A stretch of DNA of 64,000 bases from an uncultured Acidobacteriia bacterium (GTDB lineage: Bacteria > Acidobacteriota > Terriglobia > Bryobacterales > Bryobacteraceae), in the NCBI GenBank assembly GCA_903892565.1, contig CAITIX010000006.1, forward strand, positions 1-64,000. Reading direction: 5' to 3'. Made by a program: the position numbers and the translations under genes. The notes beneath the pieces are model-generated. The model saw only the letters and a list, made by a program, of their open reading frames with translations, did not search any database and was not told the origin of the DNA. Shown here one piece after another: positions 43,393 to 59,659 of the stretch; the first letter of the stretch is position 1, and every line of letters starts with the position of its first letter.

Positions 43393-46300
43393 TTACGCTT
43401 TCATGCCGACTTCGTCGGGTGTCGAGGCAGCCGCCTCACTGGCCGTGAAATACGCGCAATCGGGATGCTGGAACACGAGCGCACTGACGCTCGCCTCGGG
43501 ATCCATCATGAAACCTTCAGTCAAGTGCACGCCGATTTCCTCGGGACGCAGCAGCGTCCAGATTCCCTGCTGATCTTCCAGGCTGGGGCATGCGGGATAG
43601 CCGAAGCTGTAGCGCTTGCCGCGATAGCGCGACGTGAAACGTTCCTGCATCGTGAGCGTTGCGGGATCCGGAAAGCCCCAATCCTCGCGCATGCGCCGAT
43701 GCAGCCACTCGGAACACGCTTCCGCCGTCTCGATGGCCAGCGCTTGAATGGCATGCGCTTTCAAATATTCGCCCCGATTCTTGGCATCTTCCGAACGCTG
43801 CCGCACGCCTTCGCCGGCGGTGACGACGAACAAGCCAATATGGTCACGGTGGCCGTCTTTCTTATCGAGCACGTAGTCGCTGAGACACAAGCCTCCCGCC
43901 ATGGGCTGGCGTCCGAAATGGAACACGTGAATCGGATCCGCGGCGCCCGGCGCGAACAATTGAATCGCATTCTCGCGGCGCTCGGCTTCGAAAAACTGCC
44001 ACACGGCGCGGACTTTCATCCAACCTGTGGCTTCTTCCTTCACGCGCTCGACTGCGGCGAACAGATCCATCGCTTTGGGATCGCGCTCGGCGAGTAATTT
44101 TTCGAAATTGCCCTTGAAGCCCAGGTGCCGTCCGTAGAGCATGAACGGATTGATGTAGCTCCACATTTCGCTCAGATTCGGGACGTCGCGCACGCGCCGA
44201 TCCAGATACGCCACCGACGGGATCGGAAGGTCTGTGCGCACCTTGGGGCTGCGCTCGGTGCTGAGGTTTACCATGGGCGCGGCGTCGTGGAGGGGGGCGC
44301 CCGCGGTTGTGAAAATATGCGTGCTGATGACGATGTCGCGCTGCGCCGGGTCCATCAATTCGTTCATGATGCGCAGTCCGGTCATGGCGTCCTTCGCGTA
44401 GAACGTGGGAGCTCCATAGGCAGGGCCGATGCGCGTCGTCGTGAATTTTTCGGAAAGCGCCGCGCCGCCCACCAGCAGCGGAGTTTCCACGCCGTGATCT
44501 TTGAAATCGGACGCGGTCGTGACCATTTGATGGGCGCTCTTGACGAGCAAGCCGGAAAGTCCAATGGCATCGGGCTTGTGCTCGCGCCACGCGCTGATCA
44601 AATCCTCGGGCGCCACTTTGATGCCAAGGTTCACTACCGTATAGCCGTTGTTCGACAGAATAATCTCGACTAGATTCTTGCCGATGTCGTGGACGTCGCC
44701 CTTCACTGTCGCGAGCACGATCTTGCCGCGCGCGGCCGTATCGGCCTTCTCCATGAACTGTTCCAGATGCCCAACGGCGGCTTTCATGGCTTCGGCCGAT
44801 TGCAGCACTTCGGCCACGATCAATTCGTTGTTGTTAAACAAGCGCCCGACTTCGGTCATGCCGGTCATCAACGGTCCGTTGATAATGTCGAGCGGCGCAG
44901 TGCCTTCGGCGCGCTTCAAGTCAAGATCGGGAATGAGTCCGTCTTTCGTGCCTTCGATGATGTAATTCGCCAGACGCTCGTTGAGCGGCAAGGCTGCGGC
45001 TTTGGTTTTTTCTTTCTTGACGGTCTTACGGAAGTAATCGGAAATCGCCGCGATGTGGAATTGATTGATGGCAGCGCGCGTTTCTTTAGACTGTTGTCTC
45101 CAGTCCTCAGGAGCCTTGCGTAAAGCTTCGTCCGCTGCAGGATCTTTCGGAGGAAAGTTGAACAGCAGGTCTTCCGCCAGGCGGCGTTCTTCTTCCGGCA
45201 GCGACGCGTAGCGTTCCAGCTTTTGCGAATTGACGATGGCCAGATCGAGCCCGGCTTTCGTCGTGTGATACAAGAACACGGAGTTGACCGTTTCGCGCGC
45301 GGTCGCAGGAAGTCCGAAGGAAATATTCGATACGCCGAGAATCGTTTTGACGTAAGGAATGTGCTGCTTGATCAGCCGCAGCGCCTCGATGGTTTCCACC
45401 GCGCCGCCAATGTAGTTCTCGTCGCCGGTAGCGCAAGGAAATACAAGTGGATCGATGATGATGTCCTCGGGCGGCACGCCGTATTTTTCGGTCAGGAGCT
45501 TGACGGAACGCTGCGCCACGGCCAGTTTACGTTCGCGCGTGAAGGCCTGGGCTTGCAGCTTATCTTCGTCGATGGTGCCGACCACCAGCGCCGCGCCGTA
45601 GGTTTTCGCGATGGGGCAAATGCGCTCGAACTTCTCTTCGCCGTCCTCCAGGTTGATGGAGTTGATGATGCTCTTGCCCTGGCACCACATCAACGCGCTC
45701 TCAATGGCCTGAGGGTCCGTAGTGTCGATCATCACCGGAGCCTTGATCTTCGGCATCAGCTTGCCATAGAACGGATTGATATCGCCGAGCTCTTCGCGAT
45801 CGGACGACTGCAAGCAAACATCCACGATATGCGCGCCGTTGCGGACCTGCCAGCGCGCCACTTCACTCGCCTCTTCCCATTTCTCTTCGGCCACCATCTG
45901 CTTGAAGAGCCGTGAGCCAATCACATTAGTGCGCTCGCCGACGATCAACGGACGATTGCTGTCTTCGGCCTCCACCAGATCGATGCCCGAATAGTAAGCG
46001 CGGTGCGATGGAGGATTCACTGCATGAGGCTTGCGCCCTTCCGCCGTTTGCGCGATGGCGCGAATATGATCGGGCGTAGTGCCGCAGCATCCGCCGACAA
46101 TATTCAGCCAGCCGCGGTCCATGAACTTTTCGAGCTGCTTGGCCAGGGAATCGGGCGTTTCGAGATACTTATCTTCTTCGTTCGGCAGGCCGGCGTTGGG
46201 ATAGCAGGAAATCCGCGTGGAGGCCATTTCGGCCAGCGTGCGGATGTGGTCGGTCATCAGATCCGGGCCCGTGGCGCAGTTCAGGCCGATCGACATTAAG

Positions 46301-46965
46301 TCGGCATGCGCGAGCGAAGCATAGAACGCGTCCACCGGCTGGCCGGCGAGCATCGCGCCCCAACGTTCGATGGTGCCAGAGACCATCACCGGCAGTTTGT
46401 GGCCGAGCTCTTTTTCCAACTGCTGGATCGCGACCAGTGCCGATTTCACGTTGCGCGTGTCGAATCCTGTTTCTATTAAGAGGATGTCCGCGCCGCCTTC
46501 GATCAAGCCCTTCGCCTGGACGTAGTAGCTATCGCGCAGTTCCCCGAACGTCACATCGCCGCGCAGTGTGATGGATTTCGTGGTCGGCCCGAGCGATCCG
46601 GCCACAAAGCGGGGCTTGTCGGGTGTCGAAAACTCGTCTGCTGCTTTGCGCGCCAGTTGCGCGGCCAAGACGTTCAGGTGGTGGCTTTTATCGGCTAAGT
46701 CGAATTCCGCCAGGACGATGGGCGATCCCTGAAAGCTATTCGTTTCAATGATATCGGAGCCTGCGGCCAAATAGGCGCGGTGCACGTCGATGACCCATTC
46801 CGGGCGTGTCTGGCACAGGTTCTCGTTGCAGTTTTCCAGATGCGCGCCGCCGAAATCCTCGAGCGTGGGACGATGTTCTTGCAGCATGGTGCCCATCGCG
46901 CCGTCGAGCACAAGAATCCGCGAGGCGAGCGAGTCTTCGAGCAGCTGATGGCGTGAATGGGTCAT
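43393..46965 (-). CDS. metH: Cobalamin-dependent methionine synthase
   Basis: Transfers a methyl group from methyltetrahydrofolate to homocysteine via cobalamin. 1190 aa, all four modules: homocysteine domain (1-330; DGAMGTMLQEH, zinc Cys in GLNCATGP and GGCCGTTPDH), pterin domain (345-600; ERTNVIGSRLF, NGAHIVDV), cobalamin cap and Rossmann domain (650-880; axial His in KGDVHDIGKN) and AdoMet reactivation domain (900-1180; RGKRYSFGYPACPS). Full-length; E. coli MetH is 1227. AAGGA ribosome-binding site. An 8-bp hairpin lies in its leader. Confidence 0.98.
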   Translation of the reverse strand: MTHSRHQLLEDSLASRILVLDGAMGTMLQEHRPTLEDFGGAHLENCNENLCQTRPEWVIDVHRAYLAAGSDIIETNSFQGSPIVLAEFDLADKSHHLNVLAAQLARKAADEFSTPDKPRFVAGSLGPTTKSITLRGDVTFGELRDSYYVQAKGLIEGGADILLIETGFDTRNVKSALVAIQQLEKELGHKLPVMVSGTIERWGAMLAGQPVDAFYASLAHADLMSIGLNCATGPDLMTDHIRTLAEMASTRISCYPNAGLPNEEDKYLETPDSLAKQLEKFMDRGWLNIVGGCCGTTPDHIRAIAQTAEGRKPHAVNPPSHRAYYSGIDLVEAEDSNRPLIVGERTNVIGSRLFKQMVAEEKWEEASEVARWQVRNGAHIVDVCLQSSDREELGDINPFYGKLMPKIKAPVMIDTTDPQAIESALMWCQGKSIINSINLEDGEEKFERICPIAKTYGAALVVGTIDEDKLQAQAFTRERKLAVAQRSVKLLTEKYGVPPEDIIIDPLVFPCATGDENYIGGAVETIEALRLIKQHIPYVKTILGVSNISFGLPATARETVNSVFLYHTTKAGLDLAIVNSQKLERYASLPEEERRLAEDLLFNFPPKDPAADEALRKAPEDWRQQSKETRAAINQFHIAAISDYFRKTVKKEKTKAAALPLNERLANYIIEGTKDGLIPDLDLKRAEGTAPLDIINGPLMTGMTEVGRLFNNNELIVAEVLQSAEAMKAAVGHLEQFMEKADTAARGKIVLATVKGDVHDIGKNLVEIILSNNGYTVVNLGIKVAPEDLISAWREHKPDAIGLSGLLVKSAHQMVTTASDFKDHGVETPLLVGGAALSEKFTTTRIGPAYGAPTFYAKDAMTGLRIMNELMDPAQRDIVISTHIFTTAGAPLHDAAPMVNLSTERSPKVRTDLPIPSVAYLDRRVRDVPNLSEMWSYINPFMLYGRHLGFKGNFEKLLAERDPKAMDLFAAVERVKEEATGWMKVRAVWQFFEAERRENAIQLFAPGAADPIHVFHFGRQPMAGGLCLSDYVLDKKDGHRDHIGLFVVTAGEGVRQRSEDAKNRGEYLKAHAIQALAIETAEACSEWLHRRMREDWGFPDPATLTMQERFTSRYRGKRYSFGYPACPSLEDQQGIWTLLRPEEIGVHLTEGFMMDPEASVSALVFQHPDCAYFTASEAAASTPDEVGMKA

Positions 46966-47389: not shown

Positions 47390-47419
47390 TTGACAGAAAT
47401 CGCGTTACGGCGGTAATAT
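47390..47419 (+). promoter_or_regulatory. Sigma-70-type promoter for the metabolic cluster
   Basis: Perfect -35 TTGACA (47390-47395), 18-base spacer, -10 TAATAT (47414-47419). The expected start near 47427 gives a leader of about 50 bases before the Gfo/Idh/MocA ATG. Confidence 0.72.
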
Positions 47420-47476
47420 CAGACATTTGAAGTGTCCCCGCATCGAATCGCCATCTTTTAGTAAAGGAACTACAAC

Positions 47477-48526
47477 ATGAAACAAATCAACTTAGGCATC
47501 ATTGGAACCGGTTGGTGCGGCGGTATTCGCGCCGTCACCGCCGCGAACAGCCCGTGGGTGAAGGATCTCCACATTGCGGAGATCAAGCCGGAGCGTCTCA
47601 AAGAGATCGCGGATATGACGAATCCGAAGACCGCTTCGATCGACTATGCTCCCATCATTGCGGACAAGTCCATCGACGCCGTGATGATCTCCACCACGCC
47701 GGAGCCGACCCACTACCCCATCGCCAAGGAAGCGCTGAACGCGGGCAAGCATGTGTTCCTCGAAAAGCCGATCGCCATGGAAATGTGGGAAGCCGACGAG
47801 CTGATCGCACTCGCGAAGAAGAAGGGCCTTTCCTTCACCATTGGATATTCGCAGCGTTTCAATCCCAAGTTTGCCTATGTGAAGCGTTCCATCGAAGACG
47901 GCACCATCGGCGAGCCGGTGAGCGCGCTGGTCAGCCGCCACATCACGCGTGGCCTGGGCAAGAAAATCGGCGGACGCGTGAAGCTCTCGCCGGCCGCGAT
48001 GGAAGCGACGCACGATATCGATTTCGTGCTGTGGTGCCTTGCTCCGCGCAAGCCGATTCGTGTGTATGCGCAGGAAGTGCGCAAGATCATGAAGGGCGAG
48101 TTCAACGTGCCCGATTGCGTGTGGATCGTGGTCACGATGGACGATGGCACGGCGTTCACGATCGGCGCCGGTTGGGTGCTGCCGCCCGCCTATCCGAACT
48201 TCTCTTCGACGTGGATCGAATTCGTCGGAACCGAAGGCGCCGTGATGGTCGATGACACGCATCGCGATGTTTACTCCACCACGCTGCAGAGGGGCATCCA
48301 GTTCCCGATTTCGTCCATGCCGGGCGAATTCGTGAATCACACCTACGCGGGTCCCATGGAACGCGAGACGATTCACTTTGTGGAATGCATCGCAAAGGGG
48401 CGTCAGCCGCTGGTGACGGGCGAACAGGCTCGCATGGCAATGATGGTCTATCAGGCTGCCGATGTTTCCGTGGAAACCAACCAGCCGGTGGATCTGGTGC
48501 ACGAACCCGCTGCGCAGCTGGTCTAG
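47477..48526 (+). CDS. Gfo/Idh/MocA family oxidoreductase
   Basis: NAD(P)-dependent sugar or inositol-type dehydrogenase, 349 aa. N-terminal Rossmann motif GIIGTGWCGGIRA, the family EKP signature in HVFLEKPIAMEMWEAD (catalytic Lys), and a C-terminal alpha/beta domain with GYSQRFNPKFA and the His/Asp-containing MEATHDIDFVLWCLAP. The substrate cannot be assigned. First gene of a same-strand series of seven; an MFS transporter follows 50 bases later, fitting uptake and oxidation of a sugar-like compound. Confidence 0.92.
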   Translation: MKQINLGIIGTGWCGGIRAVTAANSPWVKDLHIAEIKPERLKEIADMTNPKTASIDYAPIIADKSIDAVMISTTPEPTHYPIAKEALNAGKHVFLEKPIAMEMWEADELIALAKKKGLSFTIGYSQRFNPKFAYVKRSIEDGTIGEPVSALVSRHITRGLGKKIGGRVKLSPAAMEATHDIDFVLWCLAPRKPIRVYAQEVRKIMKGEFNVPDCVWIVVTMDDGTAFTIGAGWVLPPAYPNFSSTWIEFVGTEGAVMVDDTHRDVYSTTLQRGIQFPISSMPGEFVNHTYAGPMERETIHFVECIAKGRQPLVTGEQARMAMMVYQAADVSVETNQPVDLVHEPAAQLV

Positions 48527-48576
48527 TATCACGTAAGAAACGCCGCATAGAACCGTAACGGGAATCGGGAGCTAAA

Positions 48577-49929
48577 TTGGCCTCGCAACGCACTGCCGTG
48601 TCCGACAAAGCCGCTGGCAGTAATGGTGGCTTAGCTCCCGATTCCCTTTCCTCCCGTCCCACCAAGGTTCGCTGGTGGATCCTGCTGCTGATCAGCTTCA
48701 TGTACCTGATCTGCTATATGGACCGCAGCAACATCTCCGTCGCACAACCTGAAATCGCCAAAGCCTTCGGCCTGAGCAAGAAAGACATGGGCTATGTGCT
48801 GGCGGCGTTCGCCTGGGCTTACGCTCTGGGGCAAGTACCCGCTGGATGGTTCGGCGATCGCTTCGGGCCCAAGAAAGTTCTTACGGTCATCATGTCGTGG
48901 TGGTCCGTTGCGGCCATCGCTACGGGCGCCGCTTTGGGAATGCCGACACTTTTCGGCGCACGCTTCTTACTTGGACTCGGCGAGGCCGGAGCATTTCCCG
49001 TGGCAAGCCGCGGCATGCAAACCTGGTTTGCTCGCGTGGAACGAGGCCGCGTGCAGGGCATCACCCATTTTTTCAGCCGTTTTGCTGTGGCGATTACGCC
49101 CTTTGTGGCCGGAACGATTCTGACCGCCTTCGGCTGGCGCTGGATCTTCTACATTTTCGGATCGCTCGGTGTGGTTTGGGCACTGGCCTTCTTTACGATG
49201 TATCGCGATCATCCCGAAGATCAAAAGGCCGTGAATCAGGCGGAGCTTGCAGAAATTCGCGGGCTGAATGCGGATGGAACGGTGAAGGTGCTTGATCGGT
49301 CGCGGCCGGCGACGCCGTGGAAGTCGATCCTGGGATCGTCCAACATGTGGTTTATCGCCGTGGGCTACGGCTGCTTCTTCTTCGGTTCGAATTTCTATTT
49401 AACGTGGTACCCCACGTATCTGCGCGAGTATCGTCATCTTTCGATTAAGTCGCTGGGCTTGCTCGGTTCGCTGCCGCTCTTTATTGGCATGACGGGCGAT
49501 GTCATCGGTGGATGGCTCACCGACAGGATTTATCACAAGACAGGAAATGCGAAGCTGGCGCGGCGTGCCGTTGCTGCGCCTGCGTTTATTCTCGCCGGTA
49601 TTTTTGTGATTCCGGCGGCGATGACGACCGATACCACGACGTCGATCCTGTGTCTTGCGGCCTCGTTCTTCTCGCTCGAAATGGTGATTGGCCCGGCCTG
49701 GGCTGTTCCTATGGATGTCGGTGGACAATTTAGCGGCACCGTGACGGGGATCATGAATATGGTGGGTGCGCTCGGCGCGTCCATGACGGCCTTGATCTAC
49801 GGGTACTTGTTCGACAAAGGGCTGTGGGTGGCTCCGTTTTTGGTTTCCGCTGGGGTGATGGCGCTGGGCGCGTTGATTTGGATTTTCCTGATCGATCCCG
49901 AAAAGTCGGTGGTGGACGGGGTTGCATAA
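48577..49929 (+). CDS. MFS transporter, anion:cation symporter (ACS) family
   Basis: 450 aa, about 12 transmembrane helices. The start is uncertain: a TTG at 48577 opens the frame and a GTG at 48598 is in frame. ACS-family signs: LICYMDRSNISVAQPEIAKAF in the first helix and GWFGDRFGPKKVL in loop 2-3. Characterised members import hexuronates, glucarate, galactonate or phthalate-like acids. With the neighbouring dehydrogenases this suggests uptake of an organic acid. It resembles the MFS gene at 61.3 kb in family but not closely in sequence. Confidence 0.88.
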   Translation: MASQRTAVSDKAAGSNGGLAPDSLSSRPTKVRWWILLLISFMYLICYMDRSNISVAQPEIAKAFGLSKKDMGYVLAAFAWAYALGQVPAGWFGDRFGPKKVLTVIMSWWSVAAIATGAALGMPTLFGARFLLGLGEAGAFPVASRGMQTWFARVERGRVQGITHFFSRFAVAITPFVAGTILTAFGWRWIFYIFGSLGVVWALAFFTMYRDHPEDQKAVNQAELAEIRGLNADGTVKVLDRSRPATPWKSILGSSNMWFIAVGYGCFFFGSNFYLTWYPTYLREYRHLSIKSLGLLGSLPLFIGMTGDVIGGWLTDRIYHKTGNAKLARRAVAAPAFILAGIFVIPAAMTTDTTTSILCLAASFFSLEMVIGPAWAVPMDVGGQFSGTVTGIMNMVGALGASMTALIYGYLFDKGLWVAPFLVSAGVMALGALIWIFLIDPEKSVVDGVA

Positions 49930-50056
49930 AGATCCGGTTGTATAAATATCGCCCTGTCAAAAGCAGGGGTTGCGCTTGTGGAATTCGCGGTTTTCGGGCC
50001 GATTCTTGCCCCGTACTGCAAGAAGAAACAGAAATCGATATAGTATGAGGAGGTCT

Positions 50057-51121
50057 ATGTTAAAGCCACGTTGGGCGTCTCGCCCGCAGCTAGCCGCACT
50101 AGCGGTGCTTGTGATGTCCGCCCTGCCTGTCTCCGCGCAATTGTCAGGCAAATGGGAGCAAATCGCTCCATTCCCCGAACAGCACGAAGAATTGTTCGGC
50201 GCCACGGCGAACAACAAGCTCTACGTCTTCGGCGGATTCATTCCGTTCTGGAAGGTCGCGGGCGTCGTGTACGAATACGATCCTGCAACCAATAAGTGGA
50301 CCGAGAAAAAGAAAATGGCGCGTCCGGCGCATCACTTGGCGCTGACGGGCTACAACGGCAAAATCTATATTTTTGGTGGATTTGAGCCTCCTCCGGGAAC
50401 CACGCCGGGTTGGGTGCCGCTCAACAATGCCTGGGAATACGATCCGGTTGCCGACACGTGGAAGGCGCTCGCGCCCATGCCCACCAAGCGCGGAGCCGCG
50501 CAGGCTGCCGAAATCAACGGCAAGATCTACGTGATCGGCGGAGGCACGCTCGCGCCAGGGGCCGAAAAGCCGTACCTGGATTTCCAAACTCCGCAGAACT
50601 CGCTCAATATCGTGGAAGAATACGATCCGAAGACCAACACGTGGCGCACGCGGTCGCCCATGCCGACGCCCCGCAATCACGTGGCGATGGGCGCGATCAA
50701 TGGAAAAATTTATGTGGCTGGCGGCCGTGTGGGAGCGCCGTACATTTCGCTCGGTACCGACGTTTCGCTGGTGGAAGTGTACGATCCGGTGAAGGACAAC
50801 TGGTACGCCACGTTGCCGCAGCGCATGCCGACCGCTCGGAGCGGCGTCGGATTTGGAGTTTACAACGGACGTTTGCTGGTGGCTGGCGGAGAGTTCCAGG
50901 ACAGTATCCAGCAGACCGCGTTCCGCGCTTTTGAAGCCTACGATCCCGTGACGGATACGTGGCAATCGCTGCCGTCGATGGTGATCGCGCGTCATGGCGT
51001 GGCCAGTGCGGTGGTGGGCGATAAGTTTTACGTAGTCAGTGGTGATGTTCAATCCTCGGGCAGCGGCATCATGGCCTCAACCACCAGAGCCGACGCATTT
51101 GTGTTTTCTCCCGGCAAATAA
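50057..51121 (+). CDS. Exported kelch-repeat beta-propeller protein
   Basis: 354 aa. The ATG at 50057 is chosen because GAGGAGG lies 4 bases upstream and a signal peptide follows (LAALAVLVMSALPVSAQ). Six kelch blades, each with the GG and W/Y pattern: NKLYVFGGFIPFW, GKIYIFGGFEPPPG, GKIYVIGGGTLAPG, GKIYVAGGRVGAPY, GRLLVAGGEFQDS and DKFYVVSGDVQSS. Some bacterial homologues are sugar epimerases (NanM) or galactose-oxidase-like, but no catalytic residues for those are identifiable by eye. A CCCTG/CAGGG hairpin without T tract lies about 90 bases before the start. Confidence 0.88.
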   Translation: MLKPRWASRPQLAALAVLVMSALPVSAQLSGKWEQIAPFPEQHEELFGATANNKLYVFGGFIPFWKVAGVVYEYDPATNKWTEKKKMARPAHHLALTGYNGKIYIFGGFEPPPGTTPGWVPLNNAWEYDPVADTWKALAPMPTKRGAAQAAEINGKIYVIGGGTLAPGAEKPYLDFQTPQNSLNIVEEYDPKTNTWRTRSPMPTPRNHVAMGAINGKIYVAGGRVGAPYISLGTDVSLVEVYDPVKDNWYATLPQRMPTARSGVGFGVYNGRLLVAGGEFQDSIQQTAFRAFEAYDPVTDTWQSLPSMVIARHGVASAVVGDKFYVVSGDVQSSGSGIMASTTRADAFVFSPGK

Positions 51122-51372
51122 GGGGTAGAGAAGCAAAGCGAAGAAGCAAGGGGAAAGAGTTTCGCGCAATCCCCGCCGGGTTGTTGTGTGCTTGGCGGGA
51201 CGATTGCGATGTAGTGGCGCGCCGATTGTTCTTTGGGCCTGGTAGTTCGCTGGCTCGCGAACAGAGGGGCGTGGTTCGTAAGGCAAGTTGTTGTTAGGGG
51301 CGTTGCTCCGCTAAAAGTTTATTCGCAGAAAAAATACCGATCTATTGGAACTTCCAGGAAGAAAAGGACAAC

Positions 51373-52737
51373 ATGAGCTATAACCTTGATCAATACTTCA
51401 TTCAGCATCCGCATGAATACGACCCGAAGCGGTTGTATAGCCAGAACAACGCGGATTGGCAGTATCGCGTCGATCACGACCGGATGCGCAAGGAGCGTCT
51501 TTCCAAGCTGCAGACGCAGCTGAAGACCCGCGACATCGGTGCGATGGTGGTCTACGCCGGCGCCAACGTGCGCTACGCCACGGGTTCTTATCAGGGTAAC
51601 TGGAAGTACAACATCAACATCCGTTACGCCGTTGTGCCGGCCTCGGGCGATCCGGTGCTGTTTGAAACCGCTGGATCGGATTTCCACTGCGCGCACATCG
51701 ATCTTCCGTGGATGGGCAGCAACAACATCCGTCCCGCGATGACGTGGCAGTGGGCTGAAGGCGCCGTGCCGCACATGGTGGGCAAGATGGTCGGCGGCAT
51801 CGTCGACGTGCTGAAGGAACACAACCTGATGAAGGAGCGCGTCGCCATCGATAACCTCGATATGGCTGCTCTCCGCGGCTTCCAGGAAGCGGGCGTCAAC
51901 ATCGTGGACGGCTGGCCGGTGATCTCGGCTGCCCGCGTCATCAAGACGCGCGACGAAATCGAATTGCTCAAGATGGCCTCGTCGATTGGCGACGCCGCCA
52001 TGTGGAAGATCAAGCACGAATGGCTGAAGCCGGGCGTTCGTGAACGTGAAATCGAAGCCAAGGTGCACGAGTTCATGCTCGAGCGCGGCTGCGAAATCAT
52101 CTATGACATCATCGTGGCGTCGGGCGGTAACACCAGCCCCTATCGCCGTTGGGCCACCGATAAGATGATCCGCCAGGGCGACATGGTCATCATCGACATC
52201 AATGCCGTTGGACCTGGTGGTTACTTCATCGACTTCGTCCGCAACTTCAAGTGCGCCCAGAAGATGAACCAGCAGGAAATCGATCTGTACAAGGAAGTTT
52301 ACGATTCCATGTACGCCGGTATCGAAATGCTGAAGCCGGGCAACACGACGGCCGACGTGGTCGCGAAGTTCCCCAAGTACGACGACGACGTGTACGGCAC
52401 TTGCACCCTGCAGCAGTTCGCGCACTCCATCGGTCTCACGCTGTACGAAGGCATGTGGATGTCCCGCGGTTACTCCTTGAAGTACCCGGCCGAGATCAAA
52501 GAGAACATGTACTTCGCGATCGAAACCTTCGCCGGCCACCCGAAGCTCCGCCAGACGTCGCGTCTGGAAGAGAACGTTCTGGTCAGCAAGGACGGCCCCG
52601 TGGTGTTCACCCAGATGGAACACATGGAAGAAACCGGTTGCAAGTGGGAACCGACGCACGGCATCTACGCCCCGGTTAAGTGGACCGCTGACGACGTCAC
52701 CGTGGTTCCGGAAGGCATCACATGGCAAAAAAAGTAA
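51373..52737 (+). CDS. M24-family (creatinase/prolidase-fold) metalloenzyme
   Basis: 454 aa. N-terminal creatinase-like domain (about 35-195), C-terminal pita-bread domain (about 200-440). All five M24 metal ligands can be read: Asp near 275 and 287 (VIIDINAVGPGGYFIDFVR), His near 351 (QFAHSIGL), Glu near 384 (AIETFAG) and Glu near 399 (SRLEENVLV). The family covers prolidases, creatinase and the DMSP lyase DddP; which applies is unknown. Codon choice here and in the next two genes looks strongly biased (AAG, CTG, ATC), as for abundant proteins. The 3' end contains a slippery heptamer and overlaps the next gene by 16 bases. Confidence 0.88.
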   Translation: MSYNLDQYFIQHPHEYDPKRLYSQNNADWQYRVDHDRMRKERLSKLQTQLKTRDIGAMVVYAGANVRYATGSYQGNWKYNINIRYAVVPASGDPVLFETAGSDFHCAHIDLPWMGSNNIRPAMTWQWAEGAVPHMVGKMVGGIVDVLKEHNLMKERVAIDNLDMAALRGFQEAGVNIVDGWPVISAARVIKTRDEIELLKMASSIGDAAMWKIKHEWLKPGVREREIEAKVHEFMLERGCEIIYDIIVASGGNTSPYRRWATDKMIRQGDMVIIDINAVGPGGYFIDFVRNFKCAQKMNQQEIDLYKEVYDSMYAGIEMLKPGNTTADVVAKFPKYDDDVYGTCTLQQFAHSIGLTLYEGMWMSRGYSLKYPAEIKENMYFAIETFAGHPKLRQTSRLEENVLVSKDGPVVFTQMEHMEETGCKWEPTHGIYAPVKWTADDVTVVPEGITWQKK

Positions 52738-53699
52738 TCGCCGTTACCGACTCTCCGTTTCCGAATCTGGATTCCGCCCGCGCGACGGTAGCCAAGATCG
52801 GCGGCGAAATTGTCCAGGCAAAATCCGGCACACCCGAGGCGATCCTAGAGGTCGCCCGGAATGCCGATGCGATTTTGACCACGTACGCGAAGGTCACGAC
52901 CGAAGTGGTTTCGGCCTTGACCCAGTGCAAGATCATTGCGCGCTTCGGCATCGGCGTGGATAACGTCGATATCGATATGGCCACCAAGAAGGGAATCGTC
53001 GTCACGAAGGTTCCCGACTATTGCATCGACGAAGTTTCGGATCACGCGATGGCGCTGTTGCTCTCCATCGTGCGCAAGATTCCGTATTCCAACAAGCTGG
53101 TGCAGGGCGGACGTTGGGAAATGCCGGCCGTGGTGCCGATCGCGCGTTTGCGCGGACGGACGCTCGGTTTGGTGGGCTTCGGACGCATCCCGCAGCTGGT
53201 CGCTCCCAAGGCGCAAGCGTTCGGGATCAACGTGGTCACCTACGATCCGTTTGTTCCCAAGGACGTTCTGGCGAAGGCCAACGTAAAGCACGTGGAGTTT
53301 GAGGAACTGCTCAAGATCTCCGATTACGTTTCGCTGCACTGCCCGTTGATGCCGGAAACCAAGCACATCATGAACGCCAAAACGTTCGCCATGATGAAGC
53401 CGGGTTCCTACATCGTAAACACCGGCCGCGGTCCACTGATCGACGAAGCCGCTCTCGCGGTAGCGCTCGATAAGGGCCAGCTCGCTGGTGCGGCGCTCGA
53501 CGTGGTGGAGAAGGAACCACCGACCGATTCGCCGATTATGGGACGCGATAACGTAATCATCACGCCCCACACTGCGTTCTATTCCGAAGAAGCGCTTCTC
53601 GACCTGCAGACCAAGGCAGCCGAGGAAGTGGTGCGCGTTCTCTCCGGTGAGGCTCCGAAAAATCCCGTTAATCCCGACGCGTTGAAAGTGGCGGGCTAG
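52722..53699 (+). CDS. D-2-hydroxyacid dehydrogenase (CtBP/SerA-like)
   Basis: NAD-dependent 2-hydroxyacid dehydrogenase, 325 aa. Catalytic triad present: Arg in VNTGRGPLIDEAAL, Glu in VVEKEPP, His in ITPHTAFYSEEA. The Rossmann motif reads GFGRIPQ, with Pro at the third Gly position. No ACT or regulatory domain. The ATG overlaps the M24 gene by 16 bases and has GGAAGG 6 bases upstream, inside that gene, so independent initiation is possible. Alternatively it is reached by -1 frameshifting, since VIAVTDS follows directly from the slippery site in this frame. Confidence 0.92.
   Translation: MAKKVIAVTDSPFPNLDSARATVAKIGGEIVQAKSGTPEAILEVARNADAILTTYAKVTTEVVSALTQCKIIARFGIGVDNVDIDMATKKGIVVTKVPDYCIDEVSDHAMALLLSIVRKIPYSNKLVQGGRWEMPAVVPIARLRGRTLGLVGFGRIPQLVAPKAQAFGINVVTYDPFVPKDVLAKANVKHVEFEELLKISDYVSLHCPLMPETKHIMNAKTFAMMKPGSYIVNTGRGPLIDEAALAVALDKGQLAGAALDVVEKEPPTDSPIMGRDNVIITPHTAFYSEEALLDLQTKAAEEVVRVLSGEAPKNPVNPDALKVAG
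52727..52734 (+). promoter_or_regulatory. In-register A_AAA_AAG slippery heptamer
   Basis: In the M24 frame the last codons are CAA AAA AAG TAA, which presents A_AAA_AAG, the heptamer used for -1 frameshifting in E. coli dnaX. Slipping back one base avoids the TAA and enters the hydroxyacid dehydrogenase frame (GTA ATC GCC). A Shine-Dalgarno-like GGAAGG lies 11 bases upstream. No downstream stem was verified. Confidence 0.6.
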
Positions 53700-53730
53700 T
53701 TCGAAATTTATAGCAAAAGGAATATATAGA

Positions 53731-54975
53731 ATGTCCCAACAAGAACCCTGGAAGACAGATAAGTGGTTTGTAAGCCCGTGGAACTTTGCTCCGGAAGTGG
53801 TGTCGCAACTCCACTTCCCCAAGCAGGTGAAGTTCTACGACATCACGCTGCGTGACGGCGAACAGCAGGCCGGCGTCATTTTCACGAAGGACGACAAGAT
53901 CCGCATCGCCGAAGGTCTGGCCGAAGCCGGTGTGCATCGCATCGAAGCCGGAATGCCGGTGGTTTCGCCCGCCGACACCGCTGCGATCAAAGAGATCGTG
54001 AAGCGCAACCTTGGACCGCAGGTGTTCGCGTTCTCCCGCTGCATGGTGGATGATGTGAAGCGCGCGGTGGATTGCGGCGTTTCGGGCATCGTCATGGAAG
54101 TGCCCTCCAGCCCGCACATCATCGAATACGCCTACAAGTGGCCGCTGCAGAAGGCCATCGATCTTTCGATCGAATCCACGGCGTATGCGAAGTCGCAGGG
54201 CCTGGAAGTGGTCTTCTTCCCGATCGACTTTACGCGTTCCGACATCAAGTGGGTGTTGGACCTCATCACGAAGGTCGCCACCGAAGGTCACATGGACGCT
54301 CTCGCGCTGGTCGACACGTTCGGCGTGACCTCGCCGCACGCCATGCAGTACCTGGTGCGCGAAGTGAAGAAGCGCGTCAACAAGCGTCTGGAAGCGCACT
54401 TCCACATGGACTTCGGCATGGGCATCGCGAACACCGTGATGGCCGTGGCGGAAGGCGTCGAAGTGATCCACTCCACCGTGCTCGGACTCGGCGAGCGCGC
54501 CGGCAACGTGCCGATGGAAGAAACCGCCATGGCGCTGTTGACCATGTACGGCCTCGACACCGGCATTAAGTACGACAAGCTGTTCGGCTTGTCCAAACTG
54601 GTCGAAAAGCTCTCCGGCCACAAGGTTCCGTCGAACCGTCCGGTCGTGGGCGACAGCCTGTTCCACGTCGAAAGCGGCATCATCGCCAGCTGGTGGATGA
54701 ATTGCGGTCAGGACAAACCGACCGAACTGTTCCCCTACACGTGGGACGTGGTGGGCCAGCCTCCTCCGAAGATCGTCGTCGGCAAGGGCAGCGGCATCGA
54801 CACCATCAAGGCGCGCCTGAAGGCCCTGAACGTCACCGCGACCGAAGAGGAAGCGATGAAGGTTGTGATGGCCGTGAAGGAATACTCCATGTCGACCAAG
54901 GATCTTCTCACCGACGAGGAGTTCAATAAGGTCCTCAAAGCCACGTTGCCCGTTGCGGCAGCGAGCGTGAAGTAA
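53731..54975 (+). CDS. HMGL/LeuA-like TIM-barrel enzyme (isopropylmalate/homocitrate synthase-like)
   Basis: 414 aa, single catalytic TIM barrel plus C-terminal helical part; no LeuA regulatory domain. Family motifs: FYDITLRDGEQQAGV, EAGMPVVSPAD and the metal-binding HxH in HFHMDFGMG near residue 223. Typical LeuA and NifV proteins have HxHNDxG, so the Asn is Met here, suggesting a distinct acceptor or a lyase reaction. It should either condense an acyl-CoA with a 2-oxoacid or cleave a 3-hydroxyacyl-type substrate. It lies 31 bases after the dehydrogenase and 12 before the zinc dehydrogenase. Confidence 0.85.
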   Translation: MSQQEPWKTDKWFVSPWNFAPEVVSQLHFPKQVKFYDITLRDGEQQAGVIFTKDDKIRIAEGLAEAGVHRIEAGMPVVSPADTAAIKEIVKRNLGPQVFAFSRCMVDDVKRAVDCGVSGIVMEVPSSPHIIEYAYKWPLQKAIDLSIESTAYAKSQGLEVVFFPIDFTRSDIKWVLDLITKVATEGHMDALALVDTFGVTSPHAMQYLVREVKKRVNKRLEAHFHMDFGMGIANTVMAVAEGVEVIHSTVLGLGERAGNVPMEETAMALLTMYGLDTGIKYDKLFGLSKLVEKLSGHKVPSNRPVVGDSLFHVESGIIASWWMNCGQDKPTELFPYTWDVVGQPPPKIVVGKGSGIDTIKARLKALNVTATEEEAMKVVMAVKEYSMSTKDLLTDEEFNKVLKATLPVAAASVK

Positions 54976-54987
54976 TCAACCTTCCAC

Positions 54988-55998
54988 ATGAAAGCAATTG
55001 TTCTACGAGCCCCAGGTCAACTGGGGCTCGACTCTTTAGACCGGCCCGATCCAGGGCCGAATCGTGTGCTGGTGCGCGTGACGCACTCCGGCATTTGCGG
55101 AACTGACCTCGGCATCTTCAGCGGCCGGATTCCCGTGAAATATCCGCGTGTGATGGGTCACGAAATGGCCGGTGAAGTCGTTGAAGGCGGCGATTCCATC
55201 AAAGCCGGCACGCGCGTGATTATCGATCCCGCGTACAATTGCGGCACCTGCTTCTTCTGCAAAGAGGGCTTGTTCAATCTTTGCCCGAATGGTGGATTGA
55301 TTGGCCGCGACACGGACGGTGGCTTTGCCGAATACCTAGCCGTGCCGCGGAAGCTCGTATTTCCGCTGCCGGAATCTCTCCCCAATAAAAATGTGCCGTT
55401 GATCCAGGTCTTGACCACCTGCTATCACGGGCAGCAGCGCATTACGATTCGTCCGGGCGATACGGTTGTCGTGCTTGGCCTCGGCGTGGGTGGAATGCTG
55501 CACGCGCAATTGGCGAAGGCCGCGGGTGCGAAGGTCATCGGCGTGGCGCGTAGTGAATGGAAGCGTGGACTCGCGAAGAAGCTCGGCGCGGACATCGTTC
55601 TTCCGAGTGATGCGACTACGGTGGGCGCAGTGAAAGAAGCCACCGATGGGCGTGGTGCGGACATCGTCATCGAATGCACGGGGAAACTGCCTGTGCTGAG
55701 CGAAGGCATCGCGATGGCGCGTCCTGGCGCACAGATTCTGTTGTTCGGAATCACGTCGGCAAAAGAAGGCGCTCTGCCGTTTTATGATCTCTACTTCAAA
55801 GAGCTCACGGTGCAGAATGGCCGTGCGGCGGTGGGGAAAGATTTCGAACCGTCCATCGCACTCGCTGCGAGCGGGAAAGTGCAGCTTGATCCGTTGATCA
55901 CGCATCGTCTGCCGATTACCGAAGCGGTGGAATCGATGAAGATGCTGGAGAACGACGTGGATGGCCGGATGAAGATTATTCTCGAGAATACGTTCTAG
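54988..55998 (+). CDS. Zinc-dependent medium-chain alcohol/polyol dehydrogenase
   Basis: 336 aa. Catalytic zinc ligands: Cys in SGICGTD, His-Glu in MGHEMAGEV. Structural zinc site: four Cys in NCGTCFFCKEGLFNLC. NAD-binding fold with VLGLGVGGMLHAQLA (GxGxxG variant). Closest in pattern to threonine, sorbitol or galactitol-phosphate dehydrogenases. It is the last gene of the same-strand cluster, starting 12 bases after the LeuA-like gene; convergent with Uma2, 17 bases apart. Confidence 0.92.
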   Translation: MKAIVLRAPGQLGLDSLDRPDPGPNRVLVRVTHSGICGTDLGIFSGRIPVKYPRVMGHEMAGEVVEGGDSIKAGTRVIIDPAYNCGTCFFCKEGLFNLCPNGGLIGRDTDGGFAEYLAVPRKLVFPLPESLPNKNVPLIQVLTTCYHGQQRITIRPGDTVVVLGLGVGGMLHAQLAKAAGAKVIGVARSEWKRGLAKKLGADIVLPSDATTVGAVKEATDGRGADIVIECTGKLPVLSEGIAMARPGAQILLFGITSAKEGALPFYDLYFKELTVQNGRAAVGKDFEPSIALAASGKVQLDPLITHRLPITEAVESMKMLENDVDGRMKIILENTF

Positions 55999-56015: not shown

Positions 56016-56513
56016 CTACTCGAAGGTGCCCTTGGGGCCTAATTCTACTCCCAACTCGGGCACCTTCAAGCTTTCCACTTCCTGCAATCCGGATTCGTAC
56101 CTGTAAAGATGCCGCCCGTGCGGATCTACCAGCCACACGTGTGCCACGCCCCACTTTTGGAAGGCTTCGAGCTTGTCGCGCACCTGAGTAAGGCGATCAT
56201 CGGGCGATAGAATCTCAATAACAATTAACGGCGGCGCGTCCGGAATTTGCGAAGGCTCCACGCCGTGGAATACCGCGACGTCCGGGATCAGGTACAGGCC
56301 TTCGCGCAGCTTCATGCGCACTTCACTGCAGGGGAAGATCGAGAGCGATTGGCGCAAGGCTCCGAAAAACAGCAGCAGGAGCATCTGCGTTTTTCCGTGC
56401 AGGTAATCGGGCAAAGTTCTCTCCAGAACGTCGCCATCCCGATACTCACGATCCAAGTCCGGGTATGAAGTACGAAGATAAACTTCGACCGGCATTCCGG
56501 GTCCTGCGCTCAT
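56016..56513 (-). CDS. Uma2 family PD-(D/E)XK endonuclease-like protein
   Basis: 165 aa of the Uma2/DUF820 family, restriction-endonuclease fold, abundant in cyanobacteria and acidobacteria and functionally unresolved. Core pattern: LIPDVAVFHG, PLIVIEILSPDD (the D/ExK strand) and DKLEAFQKWGVAHVWLVDPH. No mobile-element genes flank it. Single gene, 60 bases beyond the end of the lipocalin-like gene. Confidence 0.9.
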   Translation of the reverse strand: MSAGPGMPVEVYLRTSYPDLDREYRDGDVLERTLPDYLHGKTQMLLLLFFGALRQSLSIFPCSEVRMKLREGLYLIPDVAVFHGVEPSQIPDAPPLIVIEILSPDDRLTQVRDKLEAFQKWGVAHVWLVDPHGRHLYRYESGLQEVESLKVPELGVELGPKGTFE

Positions 56514-57083: not shown

Positions 57084-57232
57084 CCGGAGCTCCTTGACTT
57101 GGGATGTTACCACACGCATCACGAACGACCACGTGCGCGGCGAGCCCGCGTCTTGACCCCTTCCCGCGGGCTGTGCTGTAATTGCCGACATCCGGTCCCC
57201 CGTTAAGGCCGGTCCCATCGGGAGGAACTAAA

Positions 57233-59659
57233 GTGTATCGAAAGACATCGGCAGTTACCTGGATATTCGCCGGCGCGGCCGCATTAGTTGTTTCCGTGAT
57301 GCCGCCGCAAGGGGCGGAGGCGCAACAGGCTGCACCGCCCGCAGCCACTTTCCGATTCCATTTGCAGGAAGCCACTATTAGCGACATCCATCGGGCCATA
57401 CGCGGAGGCCAGCTCACGTGCCACCAACTTGTGCAGCTATATCTGAATCGCGCGAAAGCATACAACGGCACAAGTGATCGTCTGATCACCGCAGACGGCG
57501 CGCCGATCCCGCAAGCGTTCGGGACCATGCGCGCGCTATCGCCCATCAAGTTTCCCACGGAGACGGTGGGTATTCGAACGCTCGTGCCCGATTACGATCA
57601 ATACATCGGCACGCCGCTGGAGTTCGGACGCATGGAATCCACGGCATCCGATCCGAGCGTGCAGCAGCAATATGGCATGACGATCGGCACGCCGAACTCG
57701 GCACAGATCAACGCGCTCGCGACGCTGAACATCCGGGGAGAGCGCTCCATCACCTGCAAAGGTGATCGCGATAAACCGCTGTCCGCAGGGCCGCTGCCTG
57801 TCGGGTCGCCTGCCGTCTGCGAACAATTTCGCCGCCTGCCCGATGCGCTCGAACGCGCGTCCGAGCTCGACCAGCAGTATGGCCGCAATCCCGATCTCAA
57901 TGCGATGCCCATGTACTGCGTCGTGTTTTCGTTCAAGGATCCCTTCGACACGATGGACATGCACAGCGCGGGCGGTGGCGACGCGCGTTACGACATCGAT
58001 TTCCCCGCGCGCGATCACACGCTCGTCGCCCAGTTGCGCAAAAAGGGCGCGATTATTTGCGCGAAGGCGGTCAATACGGAATACAATGGGCGTCCGGCGG
58101 ATCCGGGCGGAAAGAACAAGCCGACGGTGCAGTTGCTCTCGACGCAAGGGTATCAACGCAGCTCGTGGGCGGGAAATCCCAGTAGCGCGTATGACAGCAC
58201 TCGTGCGGGATCGCTGGGCTCGAGTTCAGGATCGGGCGCGTCGGTTAGCGCGAACCTCGTCACATGCAGCCTGTGCGAGGAAACCAGTTTGAGTTGTCGA
58301 GGGCCTGCGAATCACAACTCGGTAGCGCTGATCTTGCCACACAAGTCGATGATCTCGTTCCACGGCGGCGGCATCGGCGCGGACGTTTATGAGGACCGCA
58401 CTGGCATTCATTGCCGCTATATCGGCGATTCTGCCAAGGTGCTCGATGCGTTGAAAGATCCCGTGAACGGCTACTACGATCCACGCGATGTTTTCACGAC
58501 CGTTCCGCGAACCAGCATTTATCCCGGCTCCTTCGCAAAAGCCGCAGCCGAGCCGGGCGCGCGGGGATCGCTCAAGGGCATGCGCATCGGCGTGATTCGC
58601 GAATCGATGCTGAAATTCCCTGGCGTGAAGGCGGATGAGCCGATTGTGGATGCGGCGGCCAAGGAAATCAAGAACGTGCTGGGCGATTTCCTTGGGGCGA
58701 CGCTCGTGGAATCGACCGATCCTCTGTGGCCGGACGATCCGCAGATCGACAACATGAAGCCGTCCTACAATCAGGCGCTCGCGCAGTTGGTCAGCTTGTT
58801 CTATCCGGAGATGCTCTATCAACTGAACCGGGCGGGGCAGCCCGAGTTTCCGGAATTCGTAGCGCGCATCAAGCCGACCGAATTCGCGCCGGGAAAAGTC
58901 TTCGGCACGGGCACGATGGCGCCGATCGATTACATGCTGGCATTGGCCGAGGGCCGCGAGCCGCTGCCGAAGAATCTCAACATCCGTTATATCCAGCAGG
59001 TGGTGGAATCGAACGCCTTCCGCTACCATTTCACGCAGTACGCCGAGCGCCGCGCGGCCGATTGGAAAGAGCGCGGCTTCACGGAAACGCTTGTGAATTT
59101 CCACGAGCTCAACTTGCGCTCGAAGTTTTGGGGCGACGACCAACGGGCTGGGTTCAAGAACTGGGAAGAAATCGACGATATGCGGCGTCCGGTCGACGAG
59201 CGCCAGGGTGTCGATCACAAATTGAAGCTGCGCGAGTTGCTGCGTCGCCTCGACATGAAAGTGATGATGGAAAATAAACTGGACTTGGTGGTGCGGCTGC
59301 ATTATTCGTTGCCGCCCGGCAAGATCGGCCTCGCGCCGCAGCCTGCACCCGTGGGAGATGTGCGCGGCGAAATCCGTTACGGGCCGCACGCCGGCGTGAC
59401 CGAGGTGCTGATCCCTGCGGGCTACGTGCGCACGGTGTATGATCCGACGTACCGCCTCAGTCCCGATAAAAAGCGCTATATACCGACGAACAATGACACG
59501 CCGACGATGCTGCCGGAGCCCGGCGTGCCGTTTTCACTGGTGTTTCGCGCCGATCCGGGACGTGAGGATGTGATCCTGAAGGTCGCCTCGGCGTATCAGA
59601 TGGCTTCGAAACGGCGCGTTCCACCACCGATGTACAAGCCGCTGGCGGGCGAGCCGTAG
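57233..59659 (+). CDS. Exported long-form amidase (amidase-signature family)
   Basis: 808 aa, much longer than the usual 450-550. GTG start at 57233 with GGAGG 7 bases upstream and a signal peptide after it (WIFAGAAALVVSVMPPQGAEA). The Ser-cisSer-Lys triad can be placed: Lys in GAIICAKAVNTEY near 280, cis-Ser in GSSSGSGASVS near 328 and nucleophile region EETSLSCRGPA near 352, which replaces the standard ETGGSIRxPA. Insertions between residues 130 and 260 and about 250 extra residues at the C-terminus account for the size. It hydrolyses an amide; the substrate is unknown. Convergent with doxX-like, 19 bases apart. Confidence 0.85.
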   Translation: MYRKTSAVTWIFAGAAALVVSVMPPQGAEAQQAAPPAATFRFHLQEATISDIHRAIRGGQLTCHQLVQLYLNRAKAYNGTSDRLITADGAPIPQAFGTMRALSPIKFPTETVGIRTLVPDYDQYIGTPLEFGRMESTASDPSVQQQYGMTIGTPNSAQINALATLNIRGERSITCKGDRDKPLSAGPLPVGSPAVCEQFRRLPDALERASELDQQYGRNPDLNAMPMYCVVFSFKDPFDTMDMHSAGGGDARYDIDFPARDHTLVAQLRKKGAIICAKAVNTEYNGRPADPGGKNKPTVQLLSTQGYQRSSWAGNPSSAYDSTRAGSLGSSSGSGASVSANLVTCSLCEETSLSCRGPANHNSVALILPHKSMISFHGGGIGADVYEDRTGIHCRYIGDSAKVLDALKDPVNGYYDPRDVFTTVPRTSIYPGSFAKAAAEPGARGSLKGMRIGVIRESMLKFPGVKADEPIVDAAAKEIKNVLGDFLGATLVESTDPLWPDDPQIDNMKPSYNQALAQLVSLFYPEMLYQLNRAGQPEFPEFVARIKPTEFAPGKVFGTGTMAPIDYMLALAEGREPLPKNLNIRYIQQVVESNAFRYHFTQYAERRAADWKERGFTETLVNFHELNLRSKFWGDDQRAGFKNWEEIDDMRRPVDERQGVDHKLKLRELLRRLDMKVMMENKLDLVVRLHYSLPPGKIGLAPQPAPVGDVRGEIRYGPHAGVTEVLIPAGYVRTVYDPTYRLSPDKKRYIPTNNDTPTMLPEPGVPFSLVFRADPGREDVILKVASAYQMASKRRVPPPMYKPLAGEP

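Follow-up and report, generated by a model that had tools for sequence, protein, structure and literature searches.

Seven metabolic genes lie in a row on one strand in the genome of an uncultured Acidobacteriia bacterium, of the soil type; do they encode one pathway, and what would it do? The genes, called A to G here (Table 1), are part of a window of 64,000 nucleotides, which is the whole stretch of DNA that was analysed (contig CAITIX010000006.1, positions 1 to 64,000). The initial annotation read them as an uncharacterised pathway, and the ORF list places all seven on the + strand between 47477 and 55998, at the coordinates given by that annotation, between metH (43393-46965, - strand) and a short ORF (56016-56513, - strand). 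The open-access literature, whose coverage is partial, yielded no pathway with this gene set, in agreement with the earlier statement that no named pathway with these genes is known.

Table 1. Features of the gene cluster (positions in the window; CAI, codon adaptation index)
Feature	Position	Strand	Remarks
Promoter-like TTGACA-N18-TAATAT	47390..47419	+	57 bp upstream of gene A; number of matches in the region at chance level
Gene A (core), Gfo/Idh/MocA-family dehydrogenase	47477..48526	+	Profile matches, ortholog counts; CAI rank 3/51
Gene B, MFS transporter of the ACS/galactonate type	48577..49929	+	Start at TTG 48577 or a later codon; profile matches
Gene C, exported kelch beta-propeller	49970..51121	+	N-terminus signal-peptide-like by eye; kelch repeats
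Gene D (core), M24-fold metalloenzyme	51373..52737	+	Metal ligands D275, D287, H351, E384, E400; CAI rank 1/51
Gene E (core), D-2-hydroxyacid dehydrogenase, CtBP/PGDH-like	52722..53699	+	Profile matches; orthologs in genomes with D
Gene F (core), DRE-TIM (LeuA/HMGL-like) metallolyase without the Claisen Glu-His dyad	53731..54975	+	CAI rank 2/51
Gene G, zinc-dependent medium-chain alcohol/polyol dehydrogenase	54988..55998	+	Profile matches

Genes D to G leave little or no space between them: the start of E overlaps the end of D by 16 nt, and the gaps between E and F and between F and G are 31 and 12 nt. The 251 nt between C and D are non-coding, so that the cluster may possibly be transcribed as two transcripts. 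The real start of C is probably downstream of TTG 49970. The element upstream of A had been taken for a near-consensus promoter, but the region holds 6 matches of this type against 5.0 ± 2.2 in shuffled sequences, which is what chance gives. The GC content of the cluster (58.0%) is close to that of the window (58.6%), and base composition therefore gives no sign of a foreign insert. A search of the window against Rfam returned no match. Beyond the cluster, a long ORF (57182-59659; 825 codons from a TTG, about 786 from a later start) looks by eye like a large exported amidase.

The middle three genes had also been described as codon-optimised. When the 51 genes of the window are ranked by CAI, with the ribosomal genes of the same genome as the reference set, the top three are D (0.747), F (0.721) and A (0.709). 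All three exceed the mean of the ribosomal genes (0.665); C and E have average values. The claim is thus correct for A, D and F and not for the middle three, and judging from codon usage these core genes look highly expressed.

Co-occurrence and distribution of the core genes

D is present in 14 of the 399 genomes of the host class, the window genome included, and in none of the other 22 genomes of the same genus that were searched. E is found in 12 of the 14 genomes with D against 2 of the 385 without it, A in 10 of 14 against 3 of 385 (13 of the 399 in all), and F in 12 of 14 against 22 of 385. Over these 399 genomes, which are not independent of each other, the p values for co-occurrence are 2.9e-19 (D-E), 1.1e-14 (D-A) and 1.6e-12 (D-F); at the level of genera, p is 1.7e-5 for both D-E and D-A. 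These tests rule out a chance neighbourhood.

The genomes that have A or E yet lack D contain F and D2, a related M24 gene whose product is about 33% identical to D, typically as a D2-PPDK-E-F run. Every genome of the class with a close E or A has D or D2, close orthologs of E being found solely in such genomes (the D2 genomes were chosen from loci with F, so that this statement is biased towards F and towards the outcome). The core consisting of A, D (or D2), E and F is one conserved functional module. Since the four genes recur together in distant bacteria, they almost certainly belong to a single pathway, real but undescribed.

Orthologs of D with 67-94% identity occur in 75 database loci, mostly from Acidobacteriota and Alphaproteobacteria; in the tree of D the Alphaproteobacteria are almost separate from the other phyla. 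F was looked for in 40 genomes that the database search had shown to carry D, and 35 of them contain it at an identity of at least 47%, often far from D; orthologs of E and A are present in 24 and 18 of 30 of these genomes. In G085, the three TAG stops reported for D leave its open frame of 418 codons intact. The gene set is retained in small marine genomes (OCS116/Rhodobiaceae assemblies of 1.3-1.5 Mb); it is also present in soil and groundwater Acidobacteriota and in cultured Rhodoplanes strains (R. elegans DSM 11907 and R. serenus DSM 18633). Searches of plasmids with A, E and F gave distant family members only.

Gene order in other genomes

The comparison of neighbourhoods that the initial annotation called for shows that conservation reaches far past close strains, into distant bacteria. 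The complete run of seven genes was seen in the window only. Its nearest relative is locus L046, from another genus of the same family (D 94% identical), whose order is A-B-C-D-F-E, with G absent and E and F swapped; L172 reads A-B-C-E-F and has no D. Acidobacteriota and one Anaerolineae record show D-E-F-G or D-E-G. The gene that precedes G is F or E in many Acidobacteriota and E in Alphaproteobacteria. The A-B pair occurs in L046, L172, L208, L209 and L210, and as a separate pair in other Acidobacteriota. For C, a position immediately next to the core was seen in the window and in L046 and L172. B and C are accessory genes.

Marine Alphaproteobacteria have A, D, E, F and G dispersed over about 40 kb, and in a Rhodospirillales genome (L199-L201) a stretch of about 40 kb holds D2, PPDK, D, F, a molybdenum hydroxylase, G, E, TctABC and A. 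In OCS116 genomes, F, another M24 gene and two 2-hydroxyacid dehydrogenase genes stand in a row. Molybdenum hydroxylases repeatedly adjoin D or F in Acidobacteriota, Deltaproteobacteria and Alphaproteobacteria, and organic-acid transporters and GntR-type (FCD/GntR) regulators adjoin the genes. Solute-binding protein genes lie next to D in Rhodoplanes and L106 and next to A in L201 (TctC). None of the neighbouring genes is enough by itself to name the substrate. A 2-hydroxyacid dehydrogenase, Ldh_2 and TctABC occurring together might suggest sulfolactate.

Several other associations were observed in these loci. A gene for a divergent KdsB-like protein (CMP-Kdo synthetase) lies directly after D in 29 alphaproteobacterial loci (L074:10716-11477 and 28 others), small OCS116 genomes included; the protein scores under every profile cut-off. 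Relatives of F at about 50% identity, from other lineages of the class, directly precede a phosphotransbutyrylase-like gene, several with a butyrate/acetate kinase gene as well (L178:9856-13287, L176, L177 and L179-L187). D2-type M24 genes are followed, in Acidobacteriota and Alphaproteobacteria, by a gene for a PEP-synthase-like protein that has two domains, PPDK_N and PEP-utiliser, and no C-terminal domain (L171:7561-12582, L173-L175 and L199:6950-9623). The haloarchaeal plasmid CP050017.1 of Haloarcula sp. JP-L23 (L222, 13603-29372) carries an ortholog of D (57%) in an island with genes for a molybdenum hydroxylase, SDRs, a HisD-like protein, a cyclase, an amidohydrolase and a CtBP-like 2-hydroxyacid dehydrogenase; F was looked for on this plasmid and not found.

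Features of the encoded enzymes

Pfam and NCBIfam profiles uphold the families proposed initially (Gfo/Idh/MocA, MFS, kelch repeats, Peptidase_M24, D-2-hydroxyacid dehydrogenase, HMGL-like and zinc ADH), and none of the seven proteins reaches an NCBIfam cut-off. D belongs to the M24 superfamily (PF00557, 110.9 bits), and its five metal ligands D, D, H, E and E are invariant in all 74 sequences of D. From this sequence evidence we infer a dinuclear metal site. Its AlphaFold model (pLDDT 57) is too poor for use.

The best NCBIfam match of D is the M24 DMSP lyase DddP (NF043017), with which it shares the fold, a creatinase-type N-domain, a near full-length match and five of six metal ligands. The cluster might accordingly degrade a sulfonium compound by DMSP-lyase-like chemistry, an idea already hinted at for this locus and in keeping with the presence of metH beside the cluster and of a rhodanese-like sulfurtransferase gene after E-G in some Alphaproteobacteria. 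However, the match amounts to 119.7 bits, far under the cut-off of 600, the active-site residues Asp297, Tyr366 and Asp377 of DddP (PMC4108388) are replaced by N277, L346 and L357 in D, and the distribution includes anaerobic, groundwater and soil lineages. We consider this explanation very improbable, and DMSP lysis itself is rejected on the active-site residues. A peptidase function was rejected too: the similarity is at the level of the family, yet catalytic residues have changed, the second His of the HE motif of prolidase (Xaa-Pro dipeptidase, 1pv9) being an invariant Tyr358 in D.

F belongs to the DRE-TIM metallolyase superfamily, with a TIM barrel and invariant R41, D42, H223, H225 and N259. 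Like isopropylmalate and homocitrate synthases, it has the Arg-Asp of RDGEQ, HxH, GERxGN and a similar C-terminal region; it differs from them in the condensing dyad, the Claisen Glu being Ile at 165 and the His being Ile or Val at 318 in 58 of 58 orthologs, which retain the metal ligands and the conserved Arg. The signature of HMG-CoA lyases is a glycine-loop with a catalytic Cys, and F has GERAGN where this loop is expected. The AlphaFold model of F (pLDDT 87) superposes best on homocitrate synthase (6ktq; Z 38.7, 274 residues, rmsd 1.6), against Z 32 for HMG-CoA lyase and Z about 31 for class II pyruvate aldolases.

In MAM synthase, a relative of F, alanine at either the Glu or the His position leaves no detectable activity (PMC11532901). 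Because both residues of the dyad are lost, F is probably not a LeuA-type synthase, and the formation of a C-C bond by this LeuA-like enzyme, which was one of the two alternatives first suggested for a step of the pathway, is unlikely. The modelled fold is that of the superfamily, and the lost dyad argues against LeuA-type condensation, while leaving the actual reaction unspecified. Biosynthetic chain elongation, in which F would condense an acyl-CoA with a 2-oxo acid, draws on this fold, on the closest solved relatives of F (homocitrate and isopropylmalate synthases) and on the Ptb-Buk genes next to related genes; but the catalytic His and the supporting Glu are replaced throughout, F has no recurrent neighbour of the aconitase or isocitrate dehydrogenase type, and the transporters and FCD/GntR regulators indicate catabolism, which makes us regard chain elongation as quite improbable.

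As for the other proteins, A matches inositol 2-dehydrogenase (IolG) over its full length and has the Gfo/Idh/MocA fold, but scores 142.7 bits against a cut-off of 355 (TIGR04380), and no other inositol gene is recognised. B is nearest to the galactonate-type family TIGR00893 (263.9 bits, cut-off 395). C scores 75.9 bits against N-acetylneuraminate epimerase (NanM, NF010730; cut-off 416). E has both Pfam domains of the CtBP/PGDH-like D-2-hydroxyacid dehydrogenases and matches PGDH and glyoxylate reductase best, but is under every equivalog cut-off. G is closest to scyllo-inosose and other polyol dehydrogenases, below the cut-off.

A putative catabolic pathway

The module is likely catabolic, because of the transporters, the GntR/FCD regulators and the patchy distribution: the absence of D from nearly all genomes of the same genus fits a catabolic role, and not an essential biosynthetic one. 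We propose that the cluster represents a variant of a catabolic pathway not yet described, whose fixed core consists of A, E, F and an M24 enzyme (D or D2) and in which F acts as a C-C lyase or aldolase, a proposal whose chances we judge to be about even. The pathway most likely breaks down an imported small organic acid; its direction, its substrate class and the order of its steps are what we infer from the gene families and their neighbours.

In the window the importer of the acid would be B; in other genomes it would be TctABC, a Liv-type ABC system or a TRAP system. A may carry out an NAD(P)-linked oxidation or isomerisation of the imported acid, and D, with its putative dinuclear metal site, the hydrolysis or elimination of a substituent. 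E would interconvert a 2-hydroxy acid and a 2-oxo acid. F, whose metal site is kept and whose condensing dyad is gone, may cleave a C-C bond in a retro-aldol or retro-Claisen reaction, and the product would be oxidised by G or, in other genomes, by a molybdenum hydroxylase or an SDR. Against a catabolic reading, the model of F superposes best on condensing synthases and not on lyases, and the Ptb and butyrate/acetate kinase genes beside the 50% relatives of F could fit synthesis that consumes acyl-CoA as well.

The substrate could be a sugar acid of the uronate or aldonate type, imported by B and oxidised by A and G, with E and F making a 4-hydroxy-2-oxo acid and cleaving it to pyruvate and an aldehyde. 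The nearest families of A, B and G, all below cut-off, point in this direction, as do the structural match of F to class II pyruvate aldolases and the resemblance of molybdenum subunits in other loci to glyceraldehyde dehydrogenase. Every one of these matches is at the level of the superfamily, however, no sugar-acid dehydratase or kinase is recognised among the neighbours, and the M24 enzyme has no obvious role, so that we find this version unlikely.

It may also be that the pathway degrades an N-heterocyclic or aromatic acid, the molybdenum hydroxylase hydroxylating the ring, D opening a C-N bond, and the dehydrogenases and F processing the chain. Xanthine-dehydrogenase-type complexes adjoin D or F in Acidobacteriota, Deltaproteobacteria, Alphaproteobacteria and the haloarchaeal plasmid, accompanied by cyclase, amidohydrolase and FAA-hydrolase genes. 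On the contrary, such a complex is absent beside the cluster of the window and from many loci, and D resembles DddP and prolidase rather than any known ring amidase. We hold the probability of this version to be low; the evidence does not separate it from the sugar-acid version.

Coming back to the catabolic pathway that we propose, it is conceivable, with a confidence that stays somewhat below even, that it is widespread in Acidobacteriota, Alphaproteobacteria, Deltaproteobacteria and, at least partly, a haloarchaeon, and that the chemistry of the two enzymes on which it is built is new: one would be a LeuA-branch member of the DRE-TIM proteins which became a C-C lyase by losing its condensing dyad, the other an M24-fold enzyme that is neither a peptidase nor a DMSP lyase. 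If so, the use of some common organic acid is missed by current annotation, because it calls the key enzymes a peptidase and an isopropylmalate synthase. Since cultured Rhodoplanes strains carry the gene set, the substrate can be found by experiment.

Finally, the window genome has a second M24 gene, 31% identical to D, behind dicarboxylate-symporter-like and HIBADH-like genes (L221, G000:C335, 1584-3850). Modules of this type, with 2-oxoacid dehydrogenase genes, are also found in L188, L189 and a Phaeobacter plasmid (L226).
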